64,000 bases of DNA from Desulfosediminicola ganghwensis (GTDB lineage: Bacteria > Desulfobacterota > Desulfobulbia > Desulfobulbales > Desulfocapsaceae), in contig NZ_CP050699.1 of NCBI RefSeq assembly GCF_005116675.2, forward strand, positions 1,883,001 through 1,947,000, written 5' to 3'. Shown here piece after piece: positions 43,453 to 55,453 of the stretch; position 1 is the stretch's first letter, and each line of letters opens with the position of its first letter. The position numbers and the translations under genes are program-made. The notes under the pieces are model-generated. The model worked only from the letters and a program-made list of their open reading frames with translations, ran no database searches and had not been told where the DNA came from.

Positions 43453-43529
<77 letters not shown>

Positions 43530-43541
43530 TTGGAAGGGTGC

Positions 43542-43569
43542 ACTATACACTCATTAGATTTCCTGTCAA
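43542..43569 (-). promoter_or_regulatory. Promoter of tRNA-fMet copy 1
   Basis: TTGACA, 16 bp, TATAGT on the minus strand, with the tRNA 5' end 12 nt past the -10 box. Almost the same upstream sequence recurs at copy 2. Confidence 0.85.
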
Positions 43570-43630
43570 GCGTTATGGCGAGAAAGATACTTTTATTGTG
43601 CTTTTCCTTTTTCGAAGCCAGAACAGAAGC

Positions 43631-44153
43631 CTATTGTTCATGGGCGAGGATATAAAATTTCAGTGGCCCTTTGTACTGATCTACGGCAAGTGATGCTGCC
43701 TTGTCATTACAGTGCAGGGCAAGAGCAAAACCATGGAGATAATCAGCGAGCAGGCACAGCGAGTTGTCGGGAAGGGGCGGGGAGAGTTGCAATGGGGGTG
43801 ATGATCTTCATAAACCTCTTGGTGAAGACCTGGGCTGGGCCATCATCTGTCATGGCCAGCATTGTTTCCAGTATTCCGCTATGGGCATATAGGAAATTGA
43901 GGTAGCTTTTGCAGAGGAGAAGACATTCTTCCTGCCATGATTTCTGGCCGCACGGCATATATATCGATTGCATCAACTCAGCTGTTACGGCATTGAGCAG
44001 GGCGGATTTGTTTGGGAAGTAGTAATAGATTGCCATGGGGTCGACGCCAAGAGTCATTGCGACCTTGCGTATGCTCGGCACTTTTCCCTGTTCTTGCAAT
44101 AAATATGCGACTGACTCGCATATTATGGCTGACTTTGGTTTTGCAAAATTTAT
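43631..44153 (-). pseudogene. TetR/AcrR-family regulator, frameshifted and without a standard start
   Basis: On the minus strand a TetR N-terminal DNA-binding domain is plain: helix-turn-helix VPSIRKVAMTLGVDPMAIYY then YFPNKSALLNAV. Translation upstream continues with sensible TetR sequence (NFAKPKSAIICESVAYLLQEQ) back to an ATA codon at 44153 where ATG would be expected. Around 43765-43797, in a G-rich tract, the frame breaks: the original frame ends at a nearby stop, while the +1 frame continues as DNSLCLLADYLHGFALALHC and ends at 43631 with a typical ligand-domain tail. The span is 523 nt, one more than a multiple of three. Either the gene is decayed or there is a base-calling error; the missing ATG favours decay. 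It lies between two tRNA-fMet genes. Confidence 0.8.
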
Positions 44154-44282
44154 GGTAGGAATAGATGCCCTTCTAATAGGAAAATAGCCTATGAAACTGT
44201 GCTCGGCTTCGGTGGTGAATGGTCATATTCAAAGCCGGTTTTGTATGACTTTGGGGCAGGGGGGACTATTCGGGCGAAAGTC

Positions 44283-44309
44283 GGCTCTCCCTCAAAGAAG
44301 GGGGATGAA
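44283..44309. repeat. 27-bp repeat near tRNA copy 2
   Basis: Identical to 45001-45027 (starts GGCTCTCCCTCAAAGAAGG). Both copies lie just beyond a tRNA-fMet terminator on the minus strand, suggesting that tRNA and flank were duplicated together. Confidence 0.8.
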
Positions 44310-44371
44310 AGTTTTCGGCAGGGCAGGCAGGGAGACTTGCACCTGGTGTTGCTTACAAATTTCCCAATAAA

Positions 44372-44406
44372 AAAAGCGCTTATGGCAGATTGCCATAAGC
44401 GCTTTT
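44372..44406 (-). terminator. Terminator of tRNA-fMet copy 2
   Basis: A perfect 16-bp stem AAAAGCGCTTATGGCA with a 3-nt loop, then T-rich sequence on the minus strand; 7 nt past the tRNA 3' end. Confidence 0.92.
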
Positions 44407-44413
44407 CAAATTT

Positions 44414-44490
<77 letters not shown>

Positions 44491-44502
44491 TTGGAAGGGT
44501 GC

Positions 44503-44530
44503 ACTATACACCCATTGGATTTCCTGTCAA
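44503..44530 (-). promoter_or_regulatory. Promoter of tRNA-fMet copy 2
   Basis: TTGACA, 16 bp, TATAGT on the minus strand; flanks nearly identical to the copy 1 promoter. Confidence 0.85.
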
Positions 44531-45036
44531 TCGTAATTGTGAAGGTAAAGAGTATTTATTATTCTTCTGATCTCATAAGTGGCTAAACAAGGGTGATAAT
44601 GAGGGGGGAAATAAATATACTCCTGCATCACATTCAGCAGGCAGCACACGCGCCACTGAACAGGCAGAAGCGAAACAGCAGGGCTGGTCGGGGCAAATAG
44701 CTATGGCAAGTCCAGGAGAGTCGACTGTGGCCGGCCGAGAGTGCTGTCGGTCAACCGCGCTGGGTTATACGCCGGGTCAGAAACAACTTTTATCTGTGTC
44801 TTTAAAACAGTCTGACTTTATCGTGAAAATTTGCACAATCATGCAACTCTGTCTCTGTCGTTTTGGTGTGGCGCATATCGTTTAAGACGAGGACCGTAAT
44901 GTGCTTCTGGTATGGTGTCTGGCTGGGCGAGCTGTTGGGAGGGGGAAAGGTTTTCGGGCAGGCACTTAGGTCTGTAGATGGCAGGTTATTCAACTTTTAG
45001 GGCTCTCCCTCAAAGAAGGGGGATGAAGCAATAAAA
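44531..45036. other. Spacer between tRNA-fMet copies 2 and 3
   Basis: About 500 bp with no supported gene. Contains one copy of the 27-bp repeat (45001-45027) right before the next terminator. Confidence 0.5.
45001..45027. repeat. 27-bp repeat near tRNA copy 3
   Basis: Second copy of the sequence at 44283-44309. It contains a short CCCT/AGGG inverted repeat. Confidence 0.8.
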
Positions 45037-45068
45037 AAAGGCTTACGATCAGAAGATCGTAAGCCTTT
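45037..45068 (-). terminator. Terminator of tRNA-fMet copy 3
   Basis: A perfect 14-bp stem AAAGGCTTACGATC with a 4-nt loop, followed on the minus strand by a T-run. Confidence 0.92.
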
Positions 45069-45079
45069 CCCATTGGCAT

Positions 45080-45156
<77 letters not shown>

Positions 45157-49561: not shown

Positions 49562-51121
49562 ATGGAAGAACAGACGAAGAACAACAGAGTTGGAAAAGTA
49601 TATCTCGTAGGTGCTGGACCTGGTGATCCCGGACTCATTACAGTGCGAGGAAAATACCTGCTTGAGAAGGCAGAGGTCTTGGTCTATGACTATCTGGCGA
49701 GCAAGAAATTGCTCAAGCACGTCTCTAAGACCACCAAGCTGGTTTATGCCGGCAAGCGTGGCGGTGTAAAGCATACCCATACCCAGGAAGAGATCAACCA
49801 GATGCTGGTCGATTACGCCAAGGAAGGCAAGGTAGTAGTTCGCCTCAAAGGTGGAGACCCATTCATCTTTGGTCGAGGCGGTGAAGAGGTACAGGAACTC
49901 TTCAAGGCAGGGGTTCCTTTCGAGGTTGTACCAGGTGTAACTTCCGCAACTGCGGCAGCTACTTATGCAGGTATTCCGATAACCCATCGCGACTACACTG
50001 CCTCTGTAGCATTTTTGACCGGCCACGAAGATCCAACCAAGAAGAACTCCAATATCGACTGGGCTAAATTGGCCACCGGCGTTGGTACCCTGGTAATTTA
50101 TATGGGTATCAAGAACCTGCCAACCATTGTCGAGAATCTGGTCAAGAATGGTCGTGACCCCAAGACTCCGGTCGCAGTGGTACGCTGGGCATCCACCCCG
50201 GAACAGCGTTCTGTTGTGGGCAATCTGGAGACCATTACGGATATTGTTCGCGATGCTGGTATTACCCCACCATCTTTGATTATCGTAGGCGACGTGGTCA
50301 AGCTGAAAGAGGTCACTGACTGGTATGAGAAACGGCCGTTGTTCGGCAAGAAAATTATCGTTACCAGGACCAGGGAGCAGGCCAGCGAACTGATGGTAGG
50401 TTTAGAGGAAGCCGGGGCAAACTGTCTTGAGTACTCAACCATCAACATCGAGCCTGTTGAGAACTACGATGTGCTTGACGGTGAACTGGAGCGTTTGAAT
50501 GAGTACCACTGGATTCTCTTTACCTCGCTCAACGGTGTGAAATATTTCTTCGATCGTCTCTTTGAGCGCGGCCTGGATGCGCGTGACCTGAAAGGCCCGG
50601 ATATCGGTGTGGTTGGCAAGTCGACCGCAGATTACCTCATGCAGTACGGTCTGAACGCTGATCTTATCCCCAGTGTCTTCACCGGAGAGGGACTCGCCGA
50701 GAGTCTGCTCGACCAGGGTGTCGAGGGGCGTAACATTCTCATTCCCAGAGCAGTACAGGCCCGGGAAATTCTGCCCGAGACTCTGCGGGGAGCTGGTGCC
50801 CAGGTGACTGTAACACCGGTTTACCAGAATATACCGCCCCAGGGACGAAAGGATGCTCTGCGTGAGGACCTTGAAGCCGGTGATGTTGATATGATAACAT
50901 TTACCAGCTCTTCAACCGTACGTAACTTCCTGACCATGGTTGAAGCTAAAGACAGTGAAGAATTGCAGCAGCTGCTGGCTGGTGTGAAGATTGCGGCCAT
51001 AGGCCCGATTACCGCCAAGACCGTTACCGACAACGGCTTGAAGGTAGATATTCAGCCGCAAGAATACACCATTCAGGCGTTGGTGGATGCAATCACCAAC
51101 TTCTTTACCGAGCAGAACTAG
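49562..51121 (+). CDS. cobA-hemD: Uroporphyrinogen-III C-methyltransferase / uroporphyrinogen-III synthase fusion
   Basis: A 519-residue two-domain protein. Residues about 12-255 are a SAM-dependent uroporphyrinogen III methyltransferase ([66 protein letters not shown]). Residues about 262-515 are the HemD synthase ([47 protein letters not shown]). It makes uroporphyrinogen III and methylates it to precorrin-2, the branch to siroheme, cobalamin and alternative haem. This fusion is common in Desulfobacterota and Clostridia. Monocistronic here, with its own terminator; its AAGGAG box lies unusually far (about 20 nt) from the ATG. Confidence 0.96.
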
Positions 51122-51134
51122 TATAGTCTAAAAC

Positions 51135-51163
51135 CACAGGGGCTGATTTTATCAGCCCCTGTG
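51135..51163 (+). terminator. Terminator downstream of cobA-hemD
   Basis: A perfect 13-bp stem CACAGGGGCTGAT with its complement across TTT. No long T-run. Confidence 0.8.
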
Positions 51164-51232
51164 TCGAAGCTTTCTGCATATTGTCCATTATCGCCGGTTG
51201 TCCACCAACACAGGTTGTAACATGGAGCCTAT

Positions 51233-51697
51233 ATGTCAGTAACACCTCATCAAATTCTGTCTGCAGAGACGAACCTGTCGCTTGCAGAACCCTTTCCTTT
51301 TCCCGAACATATCCGGTATCTTCGTGACACCCCCGAAGGGGCGGAACAACGTGTGGTCGAGGTTGATGACCAGGACCAAGAAGAGAGTGAGGAGCACCGT
51401 GTCCTGCTCTGCCGGGTTTGCAGTTATACGATTACTTCAGAAAAACAAAGTATCGAGATGAATGGTTCCCATCGCCATACATTTTTCAATCCTGCCGGAA
51501 TTGTTTTTGAGCTTGGTTGCTTTGCTGAGGCGAGCGGAGTGGCGCTGTTTGGAGACGCCAGTTCTGATTTTTCATGGTTTTCCGGTTATGCCTGGCGGGT
51601 TGCGGTTTGTGCCAGATGCGGCACGCATCTGGGCTGGCAATTTTCAGGCGCACGCACTTTCTATGGTTTAATTTTGAAGCATCTGGCACAGGGGTAG
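51233..51697 (+). CDS. Bacterial cereblon-like protein with CULT domain
   Basis: A 154-residue protein whose C-terminal 100 residues match the CULT domain, the ligand-binding domain of eukaryotic cereblon also found in bacteria such as Magnetospirillum (MsCI4). The zinc ligands are C60/C63 (LCRVC) and C126/C129 (CARC). FFNPAGIVFELGCF and SWFSGYAWRVAVC are family blocks. The aromatic cage is complete: W115, W121, W135 and F137, with the same 6-14-2 spacing as the human cage W380, W386, W400, F402. The first about 55 residues are acidic and probably disordered. Start after TGGAG. The natural ligand and role are unknown. It stands alone behind the cobA-hemD terminator. Confidence 0.88.
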   Translation: MSVTPHQILSAETNLSLAEPFPFPEHIRYLRDTPEGAEQRVVEVDDQDQEESEEHRVLLCRVCSYTITSEKQSIEMNGSHRHTFFNPAGIVFELGCFAEASGVALFGDASSDFSWFSGYAWRVAVCARCGTHLGWQFSGARTFYGLILKHLAQG

Positions 51698-52314: not shown

Positions 52315-53878
52315 GAATGGCGCTAGTTTAAGCGTGTTTTATAGGTGAAAAGCAACTGAATATATTGGCAAAAATTGGTATAATTTGCTATGCGAAACCA
52401 ACACCAAATCATGCCAATGTTGCCCGGTTTTCACCTTCCCAAACGAGGTAGAAAACCTCATAGCCAACAACAAAAATTTGCTCGAAAAATCACTTCCCTC
52501 AGACAGAACTCTTTTAAACAGATAGGAGAGATTTTTGGGCAATTCATTCCCACGAAATTGCTCAAACAGGATCCTTCGGGAAAGATGAGCAGACGACGTT
52601 TGTTTACCAAGGAAAACACTTTTTGGTCCTTCTTAGGCCAAGTCCTTGATGCAGACGGTGGATGTAGAGAAGCTGTAAAAAAGTTGCAATCATATGCATC
52701 TAACCACGGCCTTCGGCTTCCATCATCATCTACCGCTTCATATTGCTGTGCACGTAAGAAATTAGATGAAAATCTGCTTGTTGAGGTGTTTCAACATACT
52801 GCTAAATGGTCCGGAGCACGACGTGCATCTCATTCATTAAATGATCGCCAGGTAATTGTTGTTGATGGGACAGGTGTTACAATGGCGGATACAGCAGAAA
52901 ATCAAGAGCTTTGGCCACAGTCATCGAACCAGAAACCAGGATGCGGCTTCCCCTCAGCACGAATATGCGCATACTTTTCATTGCAAACCGGAACAATGCT
53001 CAGCTATGCCATCGGTAATAAAAAGAGTAACGAACTTCCATTGTTCCGTAAGCAGTGGTCCACCTTTGAGGCTGGTGATATCTTTCTTGGTGATAAAGGT
53101 TTTTGTAGTTACTTCGATTTAGCCGAGCTGAAAAAACGCTGTGTTGATAGTGTGATAACACTTGCTCGTAGAAAACCAGTCGGTAGGAAAAACTGCATTA
53201 AAGAATTCGCTCCTGATGATCTACTGATTGAATGGAAAAAACCAGTATACAGGGAAATGGTGTCGTATTCGCGGAAAACCTGGGAGGACCTTCCCGACAA
53301 ACTCGTTATGAGACAAATCAAAGTAAAGGTGACTCAATCAGGGTTTAGAACAAAAGAATTTCATATTGTTACCACGCTAATCGATCAAGATCAGTACCTG
53401 AAAGACGAAATTGCAGCGTTATACCTTAAGCGTTGGGATGTCGAACTTTTCTTTCGTGATATCAAGACAACGATGGGATTTGATATCCTCCGGTGCCAAT
53501 CGCCTGAAATGATAAAGAAAGAAATTTTAATGTACTTCATAGCGTACAACTGCATCCGGCGCATAATGTTACAAGCGACACAGCTGGTAGACATTGATAT
53601 CCGGTCTATCAGTTTCAAAGGAAGTCTACAGGCTATTAGAAGTTGGGAACCACGGTTGGGGTCCTCTAGGTTGAGCACAAATGAAAGACAAAACATGCTC
53701 TCAGATTTATCCTTTGTCGTGGCTCGTTGCAAAGTTTTCGACAGGCCTGGACGAAGCGATCCGCGGTGTCTTAAGCGAAGACCAAAACCTTATCAGTTAC
53801 TCAACAAACCTAGAAGTGAAATGGTCGAAATACAGCATCGGAGCAGATATGAAAAAAAGGCTTAAACTAGCGCCATTC
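52315..53878 (+). mobile_element. IS4-family insertion sequence, copy 2 (1564 bp)
   Basis: Same 19-bp inverted repeats and length as the element at 27-28.6 kb, opposite orientation. Flanked by the direct repeat GGGTCGGTCCT at 52304-52314 and 53879-53889, the latter shared with copy 3. Confidence 0.97.
52390..53865 (+). CDS. IS4-family transposase, copy 2
   Basis: A 491-residue DDE transposase, protein-identical to copies 1 and 3, with Asp159, Asp235 and Glu352 in the Y-(2)-R-(3)-E-(6)-K context. Intact. It begins 75 bp inside the left end and reads towards the directly adjoining copy 3. Confidence 0.96.
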   Translation: MRNQHQIMPMLPGFHLPKRGRKPHSQQQKFARKITSLRQNSFKQIGEIFGQFIPTKLLKQDPSGKMSRRRLFTKENTFWSFLGQVLDADGGCREAVKKLQSYASNHGLRLPSSSTASYCCARKKLDENLLVEVFQHTAKWSGARRASHSLNDRQVIVVDGTGVTMADTAENQELWPQSSNQKPGCGFPSARICAYFSLQTGTMLSYAIGNKKSNELPLFRKQWSTFEAGDIFLGDKGFCSYFDLAELKKRCVDSVITLARRKPVGRKNCIKEFAPDDLLIEWKKPVYREMVSYSRKTWEDLPDKLVMRQIKVKVTQSGFRTKEFHIVTTLIDQDQYLKDEIAALYLKRWDVELFFRDIKTTMGFDILRCQSPEMIKKEILMYFIAYNCIRRIMLQATQLVDIDIRSISFKGSLQAIRSWEPRLGSSRLSTNERQNMLSDLSFVVARCKVFDRPGRSDPRCLKRRPKPYQLLNKPRSEMVEIQHRSRYEKKA

Positions 53879-53889
53879 GGGTCGGTCCT

Positions 53890-55453
53890 GAATGGCGCTA
53901 GTTTAAGCGTGTTTTATAGGTGAAAAGCAACTGAATATATTGGCAAAAATTGGTATAATTTGCTATGCGAAACCAACACCAAATCATGCCAATGTTGCCC
54001 GGTTTTCACCTTCCCAAACGAGGTAGAAAACCTCATAGCCAACAACAAAAATTTGCTCGAAAAATCACTTCCCTCAGACAGAACTCTTTTAAACAGATAG
54101 GAGAGATTTTTGGGCAATTCATTCCCACGAAATTGCTCAAACAGGATCCTTCGGGAAAGATGAGCAGACGACGTTTGTTTACCAAGGAAAACACTTTTTG
54201 GTCCTTCTTAGGCCAAGTCCTTGATGCAGACGGTGGATGTAGAGAAGCTGTAAAAAAGTTGCAATCATATGCATCTAACCACGGCCTTCGGCTTCCATCA
54301 TCATCTACCGCTTCATATTGCTGTGCACGTAAGAAATTAGATGAAAATCTGCTTGTTGAGGTGTTTCAACATACTGCTAAATGGTCCGGAGCACGACGTG
54401 CATCTCATTCATTAAATGATCGCCAGGTAATTGTTGTTGATGGGACAGGTGTTACAATGGCGGATACAGCAGAAAATCAAGAGCTTTGGCCACAGTCATC
54501 GAACCAGAAACCAGGATGCGGCTTCCCCTCAGCACGAATATGCGCATACTTTTCATTGCAAACCGGAACAATGCTCAGCTATGCCATCGGTAATAAAAAG
54601 AGTAACGAACTTCCATTGTTCCGTAAGCAGTGGTCCACCTTTGAGGCTGGTGATATCTTTCTTGGTGATAAAGGTTTTTGTAGTTACTTCGATTTAGCCG
54701 AGCTGAAAAAACGCTGTGTTGATAGTGTGATAACACTTGCTCGTAGAAAACCAGTCGGTAGGAAAAACTGCATTAAAGAATTCGCTCCTGATGATCTACT
54801 GATTGAATGGAAAAAACCAGTATACAGGGAAATGGTGTCGTATTCGCGGAAAACCTGGGAGGACCTTCCCGACAAACTCGTTATGAGACAAATCAAAGTA
54901 AAGGTGACTCAATCAGGGTTTAGAACAAAAGAATTTCATATTGTTACCACGCTAATCGATCAAGATCAGTACCTGAAAGACGAAATTGCAGCGTTATACC
55001 TTAAGCGTTGGGATGTCGAACTTTTCTTTCGTGATATCAAGACAACGATGGGATTTGATATCCTCCGGTGCCAATCGCCTGAAATGATAAAGAAAGAAAT
55101 TTTAATGTACTTCATAGCGTACAACTGCATCCGGCGCATAATGTTACAAGCGACACAGCTGGTAGACATTGATATCCGGTCTATCAGTTTCAAAGGAAGT
55201 CTACAGGCTATTAGAAGTTGGGAACCACGGTTGGGGTCCTCTAGGTTGAGCACAAATGAAAGACAAAACATGCTCTCAGATTTATCCTTTGTCGTGGCTC
55301 GTTGCAAAGTTTTCGACAGGCCTGGACGAAGCGATCCGCGGTGTCTTAAGCGAAGACCAAAACCTTATCAGTTACTCAACAAACCTAGGAGTGAAATGGT
55401 CGAAATACAGCATCGGAGCAGATATGAAAAAAAGGCTTAAACTAGCGCCATTC
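53890..55453 (+). mobile_element. IS4-family insertion sequence, copy 3 (1564 bp), head-to-tail with copy 2
   Basis: Same ends and length. It is separated from copy 2 only by the 11-bp GGGTCGGTCCT and followed by a third copy of that repeat at 55454-55464. One difference from the other copies that I noticed: AGG instead of AGA near 55388, silent in the transposase. Confidence 0.97.
53965..55440 (+). CDS. IS4-family transposase, copy 3
   Basis: A 491-residue transposase identical in protein sequence to the other two copies, with one silent base change close to the C-terminus. All catalytic residues are present. Its promoter region includes the junction of the two inverted repeats between copies 2 and 3, which could alter its expression. 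Confidence 0.96.
   Translation: MRNQHQIMPMLPGFHLPKRGRKPHSQQQKFARKITSLRQNSFKQIGEIFGQFIPTKLLKQDPSGKMSRRRLFTKENTFWSFLGQVLDADGGCREAVKKLQSYASNHGLRLPSSSTASYCCARKKLDENLLVEVFQHTAKWSGARRASHSLNDRQVIVVDGTGVTMADTAENQELWPQSSNQKPGCGFPSARICAYFSLQTGTMLSYAIGNKKSNELPLFRKQWSTFEAGDIFLGDKGFCSYFDLAELKKRCVDSVITLARRKPVGRKNCIKEFAPDDLLIEWKKPVYREMVSYSRKTWEDLPDKLVMRQIKVKVTQSGFRTKEFHIVTTLIDQDQYLKDEIAALYLKRWDVELFFRDIKTTMGFDILRCQSPEMIKKEILMYFIAYNCIRRIMLQATQLVDIDIRSISFKGSLQAIRSWEPRLGSSRLSTNERQNMLSDLSFVVARCKVFDRPGRSDPRCLKRRPKPYQLLNKPRSEMVEIQHRSRYEKKA

Follow-up and report, generated by a model that had tools for sequence, protein, structure and literature searches.

The cage of the thalidomide-binding domain of human cereblon (CRBN) is built from three tryptophans, W380, W386 and W400, together with F402, which we take to be its fourth residue. 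To our knowledge, bacteria do not have the CRL4 ubiquitin ligase. SspB-type adaptors of AAA+ proteases combine a client domain with a flexible tether. CRBN has been reported to recognise C-terminal cyclic imides, which arise either when proteins are damaged or through PCMT1 (PMC11974815). Stand-alone bacterial CULT proteins, including a deltaproteobacterial sequence from Desulfonatronospira, were described by Lupas et al. 2015; in that paper uracil and uridine, as well as thalidomide, are ligands of the Magnetospirillum protein MsCI4, and the physiological ligand is posed as a question at the naming of the family (PMC4287342).

Here we analyse a gene in a 64,000-nt stretch of the Desulfosediminicola ganghwensis genome (contig NZ_CP050699.1; the whole stretch is called the window below). 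Judged by its sequence, its conserved residues and its modelled fold, the encoded protein is a free-standing CULT protein, and it joins the stand-alone bacterial group already known. Like MsCI4 (MGR_0879, cereblon isoform 4 of Magnetospirillum gryphiswaldense), it is a stand-alone CULT with both CxxC pairs, the NPxG motif, the 6-14 spacing of the tryptophans and the same modelled fold. Three things set it apart from MsCI4: a cage Phe in place of Tyr, which 61 of 100 aligned proteins share; a tail of 56 residues that carries a motif and an acidic linker; and cobA-hemD as its neighbour. Its domain is homologous to the thalidomide-binding domain of human CRBN and shares its zinc and Trp residues, but in contrast to CRBN it has no LON domain (no Pfam match to one at E up to 1), and its 154 residues leave no room for the DDB1-binding part. 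In architecture only it resembles the SspB-type adaptors, having a binding domain, a disordered linker and a short terminal motif, although here the motif is N-terminal.

The cobA-hemD site, the tail motif and the clustering of CULT with genes for a Lon-type protease and for a protein with a BFN domain are new; no earlier report of them was found in a literature search outside which most subscription papers fell. These three features provide testable clues to the role of bacterial CULT proteins, and could connect the recognition of cereblon-type degrons with ubiquitin-free proteolysis.

Identification of the CULT protein

The features of the locus are collected in Table 1. A phmmer search of solved structures matched the window protein to MsCI4 over residues 57-154 (E 1.4e-29) and to cereblon chains over residues 58-141 (E 1.3e-14 to 6.1e-12). 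Pfam and NCBIfam, neither of which has a CULT model, gave no family above cut-off; the PF03226 (Yippee/Mis18) profile reached E 1e-3 and 19.7 bits, below its curated cut-off of 26.6, and by sequence this family is a distant relative only, such a weak score being expected for a sister family. The assignment to the CULT family, made from the sequence in an earlier note on this stretch, thus stands: no profile search placed the protein elsewhere, and the structure-database search returned CULT. The four zinc cysteines that the note had named (C60, C63, C126 and C129) are all found at those positions, as are the cage residues W115, W121, W135 and F137, spaced 6-14-2 like W79, W85, W99 and Y101 of MsCI4. 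The gene is single-copy in its own genome. In CULT domains the NPxG motif lies at the tip of a hairpin, according to the accessible part of PMC4449219.

Table 1. Coordinates of the features discussed, in window positions
Feature	Position	Strand	Evidence
cobA-hemD fusion (uroporphyrinogen-III C-methyltransferase / uroporphyrinogen-III synthase), upstream neighbour	49562..51121	+	Pfam, NCBIfam, adjacency survey
Perfect 12-bp inverted repeat, 5-nt loop, no T-tract, between cobA-hemD and CULT	51135..51163		sequence reading
GGAG, likely ribosome-binding site, ATG 5 nt further on	51224..51227	+	sequence reading
CULT (cereblon-type) protein gene, ATG start to TAG, 154 aa; domain about 57-154	51233..51697	+	ORF, phmmer, Foldseek/VIA
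Tail motif I27-R28-Y29-L30-R31, 28 residues before C60	51311..51325	+	alignment, motif test
Acidic linker, residues 32-59, predicted disordered to about 50	51326..51409	+	net charge -9; pLDDT
First zinc CxxC, C60 and C63	51410..51421	+	98/98 rows with residues there
NPxG hairpin motif, N86-P-A-G89	51488..51499	+	N86, G89 each 100/100
Cage Trp W115	51575..51577	+	100/100 in alignment
Cage Trp W121	51593..51595	+	100/100 in alignment
Second zinc CxxC, C126 and C129	51608..51619	+	100/100 in alignment
Cage Trp W135 and Phe F137	51635..51643	+	W135 100/100; 137 = Phe 61, Tyr 39

An AlphaFold2 model was built from nine sequences (using loci L002-L009). Within the domain, ten-residue means of pLDDT were 92 at residues 61-70, 76-88 at 81-100 and 86-97 at 101-150, with one weak stretch at 71-80 (pLDDT 50). 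A Foldseek search with the domain model placed MsCI4 structures at the top (2.3e-11). The prediction and comparison that had been proposed as a check were run, and the model of residues 56-154 overlays both references in VIA alignments: MsCI4 with Z 16.1 and rmsd 1.6 over 96 residues, and human CRBN with Z 14.9 and 34-35% identity over 97 aligned residues. The match to 9nr3, a CRBN-DDB1 structure whose title gives a complex with GLUL-cN, has Z 14.6 and rmsd 2.0 over 99 residues. As modelled, the CULT domain is a beta-tent.

Distribution and conservation

Homologues of the CULT protein were found in 69 of 144 related genomes, its own included (48 of the 101 of good quality), and in 39 of 395 genomes sampled over the phylum; the nearest named relatives found belong to Desulfopila aestuarii and Desulfosediminicola flagellatus. 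Since 75 of the 144 relatives gave no match (53 of the 101 good-quality genomes), the protein is dispensable.

We aligned 100 proteins, namely that of the window, 68 from loci in the relatives' genomes and 31 from the phylum sample, leaving out a match in G294 that contains a stop and the second match in G322. The three cage tryptophans are present in every protein, and F116, G134 and F143 are invariant alongside N86, G89, C126 and C129, as are C60 and C63 in the 98 rows that reach them. It had been pointed out that the Trp cage is complete and that Phe stands where the Magnetospirillum homologue has Tyr; both statements are true, but they describe most of the family, with Phe137 an ordinary variant (61 Phe, 39 Tyr).

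Against three congeners the CULT domain shows pN of 0.25-0.31 and pS of 0.68-0.73, and is under purifying selection; the tail diverges faster (pN 0.48-0.51). A phage, plasmid or viral origin was considered and rejected: tblastn of CULT against phages and plasmids at E 0.01 gave no match, and one alignment-derived pattern searched against viral contigs returned 23 stretches with no CULT relative among them.

A motif in the N-terminal tail

The tail upstream of the domain varies, apart from a short motif some 28 residues ahead of C60, where the aligned position holds Arg in 78 of 96 rows and Lys in 11. We scored the motif without alignment in two forms: a strict one, which asks for three hydrophobic residues (the last Phe, Leu, Tyr, Trp or Met) followed by Arg or Lys at 24-32 residues before C60, and a relaxed one, with only two hydrophobic residues before the Arg or Lys; four of the 100 aligned rows, with tails under 25 residues, were dropped. 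With relatedness ignored, the strict form was present in 47 of 96 tails, compared with a mean of 1.9 and a maximum of 7 in 300 shufflings, and the relaxed form in 64 of 96, compared with a shuffled mean of 9.0 and maximum of 20. Counted by genus, the figures are 23 of 53 (strict) and 34 of 53 (relaxed).

The window tail fits the relaxed form only (Y29-L30-R31) and not the strict three-hydrophobic form. By family the strict form is concentrated, occurring in 33 of 48 members of f1 and in none of four of f12, and the motif is absent from the two Lon-linked CULTs tested (L161 and L162, see below). In L062, where the CULT and cobA-hemD reading frames overlap, the motif, counted by hand, falls beyond the cobA-hemD stop, so that there it is not a shadow of the upstream gene.

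The tail had been described as acidic and probably disordered. In the window protein this holds: the linker from R31 to C60 carries a net charge of -9, and block means of pLDDT over residues 1-50 are 44-57, with values below 50 at 23-38 and 40-50. Linker acidity is not conserved, however, net charge ranging from -12 to +6.

A fixed site behind cobA-hemD

The siroheme/haem gene noted just upstream is indeed there, ending 111 nt before CULT, and the arrangement is kept in two families. By match coordinates, CULT lies directly behind cobA-hemD on the same strand in 51 of the 53 CULT-bearing genomes of these families, which span 14 genera (47 of 49 in the window's family and 4 of 4 in family f12). 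Contig ends truncate the two exceptions, one of which (L046) has a cobA-hemD fragment at the start of its CULT contig. Greedy picking of the longest ORFs missed cobA-hemD in four loci (L067, L090, L102 and L058), which left 47; over these 47 loci the median gap between the two ORFs is 8 nt, with ORF starts taken as the first ATG, GTG or TTG, so that gaps are lower limits and overlaps upper limits. Because the median gap is this short, co-transcription with cobA-hemD is likely in many loci, although the window's own gap is 111 nt and contains a hairpin. In the window's lineage CULT appears as an accessory behind cobA-hemD, probably often co-transcribed with it.

In the window, the intervening sequence has an MFE of -27.8, and no terminator was flagged. 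A conserved terminator was rejected, as the 12-bp hairpin has no T-tract and the gaps in three congeners measure only 18-34 nt. The inverted repeat at 51135-51163 could be a processing or attenuation element.

Adjacency was seen in none of the 16 CULT genomes from other families of the order: CULT and cobA-hemD lie on different contigs in 14 of them and far apart on one contig in one, although in two (G093 and G102) the contig breaks off upstream of CULT, so that adjacency there could have gone unseen. Only G143 among the 16 had no cobA-hemD match; G125 had two cobA-hemD fragments on contig C111 and CULT on C84. Across the phylum, blastp found cobA-hemD near CULT in none of 31 loci (about 6 kb on each side where the contig allows).

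Among CULT-less genomes of the window's family, 34 of 39 keep cobA-hemD. We inspected 20 CULT-less stretches (19 from the window's family, one from f12) that were chosen for having cobA-hemD and are therefore informative on the next gene only. In 11 of the 20 the next gene is an opposite-strand SNF2-type helicase gene, the same one that stands immediately behind CULT in 36 loci that have CULT. These 11 comprise seven of the eight stretches from genus g7, two from g10 and one each from g11 and g14; the nine without the helicase, some of them contig-cut, comprise five from g5 and one each from g7, g16, g17 and f12. In several genera, then, the presence of CULT at this fixed site varies while its neighbour is unaffected. 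It follows that CobA-HemD does not need CULT, and that descent can explain the synteny.

Two further ideas about this arrangement were tried and rejected. A single origin is not recovered by the CULT tree, in which the linked CULTs do not form one clade (their common node holds 90 tips, 52 of them linked); the tree is a midpoint-rooted FastTree over 96 domain columns whose deep nodes are not trusted. CobA-HemD as a client of CULT was also rejected: a C-terminal Asn or Gln is found in 9 of 50 readable CobA-HemD sequences from CULT-bearing loci versus 2 of 20 from CULT-less ones (p 0.49). The window's own CobA-HemD ends in Asn, a residue that PCMT1 cyclises.

Clustering of CULT with Lon-type protease and BFN genes in a divergent sub-branch

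In two divergent loci (L161 and L162) the gene after CULT encodes a LonB/LonC-like protease and is followed by a gene for a BFN-domain protein. A search of relatives yielded six genomes with close versions of these CULTs (E 1e-42 or better), and in five of the six the three genes form one co-directional cluster, in two gene orders (loci L161, L162, L187, L186 and L188, in families f47, f63 and f121 and not in that of the window). The order CULT-Lon-BFN occurs in G271, G425 and G539, with CULT-Lon gaps of 87, 444 and 13 nt, and the order Lon-BFN-CULT in G536 and G529, with gaps of about 266 and 121 nt; in the sixth genome, G528, CULT is on one contig and Lon-BFN on another. No such Lon was seen within the fetched stretches of four members of the wider branch (L158, L160, L163 and L164), which makes five of ten for the whole branch.

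All five proteases conserve the Ser of a GDSAS stretch and, further downstream, GGV.RK, which we take to be the Lon catalytic dyad. No canonical Walker A motif turned up in the five when they were searched by regular expression, and their assignment as ATPases rests on Pfam, run on two of them. With the subtype set at 69% identity or more, a cut-off fixed after seeing the list (the next match has 53%), the close Lon subtype is found in 12 of 148 genomes, that is, in 6 of 6 with that CULT versus 6 of 142 without it (Fisher 7e-8, with relatedness ignored and the same post hoc cut-off). Five of the six subtype-bearing genomes without CULT have BFN beside Lon; no CULT was seen near Lon in the stretches fetched from these six, several of them contig-cut. 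G574, of the same genus as G271, has an MBL gene adjoining Lon, and in G271 CULT sits between the two. Because Lon-BFN pairs without CULT exist and two gene orders occur, CULT is an accessory of Lon-BFN that can take two positions.

In the order to which the window belongs, Lon-like proteases (E 1e-60) showed no such association, being found in 20 of 69 genomes with CULT versus 14 of 75 without (p 0.17, relatedness ignored). Nor was a protease recognised among ten representatives of conserved neighbours in the window's lineage, three of which had no NCBIfam match at all. The D. ganghwensis genome has its own Lon-like gene outside the window (G000:C1:3980633-3983047), with one in-frame TGA in the matched stretch.

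Other neighbours of CULT

The neighbourhood survey suggested in the earlier note was carried out and revealed lineage-specific partners, the cobA-hemD site in two families among them; a universal partner gene was sought and none was found. Outside f1 and f12 we annotated 32 distinct neighbouring proteins, chosen by eye and so giving no background rate for themes. In four f48 genomes (L142, L143, L144 and L190) the gene just upstream of CULT encodes an alpha/beta hydrolase (S33), at a distance of 2-19 nt in the first three. In L152 (4312-7263) CULT has cobQ 27 nt upstream and, on its other side at 0 nt, a gene of the arginyltransferase family (N-degron); in the nearest CULT relative found, G417 (L155), the upstream gene is instead of the DsbA type. 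An MBL hydrolase gene is among the partners in L161.

What might bacterial CULT proteins do?

The explanation that we favour, tentatively and at somewhat less than even confidence as a whole, is that CULT is a reader and tether for cyclic imides whose most likely class of partner is an ATP-dependent protease. The zinc-pinned beta-tent would present a Trp cage for a cyclic imide or another ring of similar shape, most often the C-terminal cyclic imide (cyclised Asn or Gln) of an aged, damaged or PIMT-modified protein; with the client held in the cage, the disordered arm at the N terminus would dock on the partner through its hydrophobic-hydrophobic-Arg motif. The parts of this reading differ in strength. 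That the pocket reads imides is very probable from homology; that it serves mainly to bind the C-terminal cyclic imide of a protein, as the shared pocket suggests, may be true or false with about equal chance. An ATP-dependent protease is named as the likeliest partner because the CULT of the sub-branch is genetically linked to a Lon-type protease; that clients are handed over to such a protease, as this linkage and the tail architecture hint, is rather doubtful. Modification by PIMT is possible, since 143 of 144 relatives' genomes have a PIMT-family (PF01135) match, although at that frequency co-occurrence does not discriminate and was discarded as evidence. Going further, bacterial CULT proteins might do an ancestral or parallel version of the cereblon job, bringing damaged proteins that end in a cyclic imide to an ATP-dependent protease without ubiquitin, in one branch through an operon shared with a Lon-type protease and in the window's branch through a short N-terminal docking motif. 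We consider this unlikely; if true, it would amount to a bacterial degradation pathway for the cereblon degron that needs no ubiquitin.

The cage might instead bind free uracil, uridine or another imide or lactam, with CULT buffering or signalling a small molecule and having no part in protein quality control. The ligands of MsCI4 suit this idea, as do structures with deoxyuridine and valerolactam among the Foldseek matches listed and the argument, in the accessible part of PMC4287342, that the shared pocket means a widespread ligand. However, neither the ten conserved-neighbour representatives nor the 32 proteins outside f1 and f12 included a recognised pyrimidine-metabolism gene, the nearest hint being a dihydrouridine synthase gene in L150, and the tail motif is left unexplained; we see here a minor but appreciable chance. 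The tail would have another meaning if the N-terminal arm lay over the binding site as a lid, as the N-terminal extension of cereblon folds along its own site (accessible part of PMC4449219). This seems quite unlikely to us, for the tail is not confidently packed on the domain in its low-pLDDT segments, a weak objection given that the model is ligand-free and made from nine sequences.

The tight linkage to cobA-hemD invites a role in tetrapyrrole metabolism, in which CULT would bind an imide-bearing breakdown product or control the turnover of sirohaem and haem enzymes. Besides the 51 of 53 genomes and the 8-nt median gap, it can draw on single cases, such as the cobQ of L152 and, in L146, a gene 9 nt downstream that resembles ferrochelatase but scores just under the Pfam cut-off, with cobD further on, and on human UROD, a PCMT1-dependent CRBN substrate according to the accessible part of PMC11974815. 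Nevertheless, adjacency is seen in none of the 16 other-family genomes and none of the 31 phylum loci, most CULT-less genomes of the family keep cobA-hemD, the CobA-HemD C-termini show no Asn/Gln enrichment with CULT, and synteny by descent suffices, all of which makes such a role improbable. Finally, patchy presence across relatives and the two IS4-type transposase genes just downstream would fit an accessory gene merely retained in this strain, with no present function. As the ORF is intact and dN lies well below dS against three congeners, we give this very little credence.

Other features of the window

The two IS4-type transposase genes are in tandem at 52390-55440, 99 bases apart and identical at 1475 of 1476 bases; they lie downstream of CULT, where many relatives have the SNF2-type helicase gene. 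Upstream, at 43456-45156, the window carries three minus-strand tRNA genes about 0.6-0.9 kb apart, two of them with equal Rfam scores.
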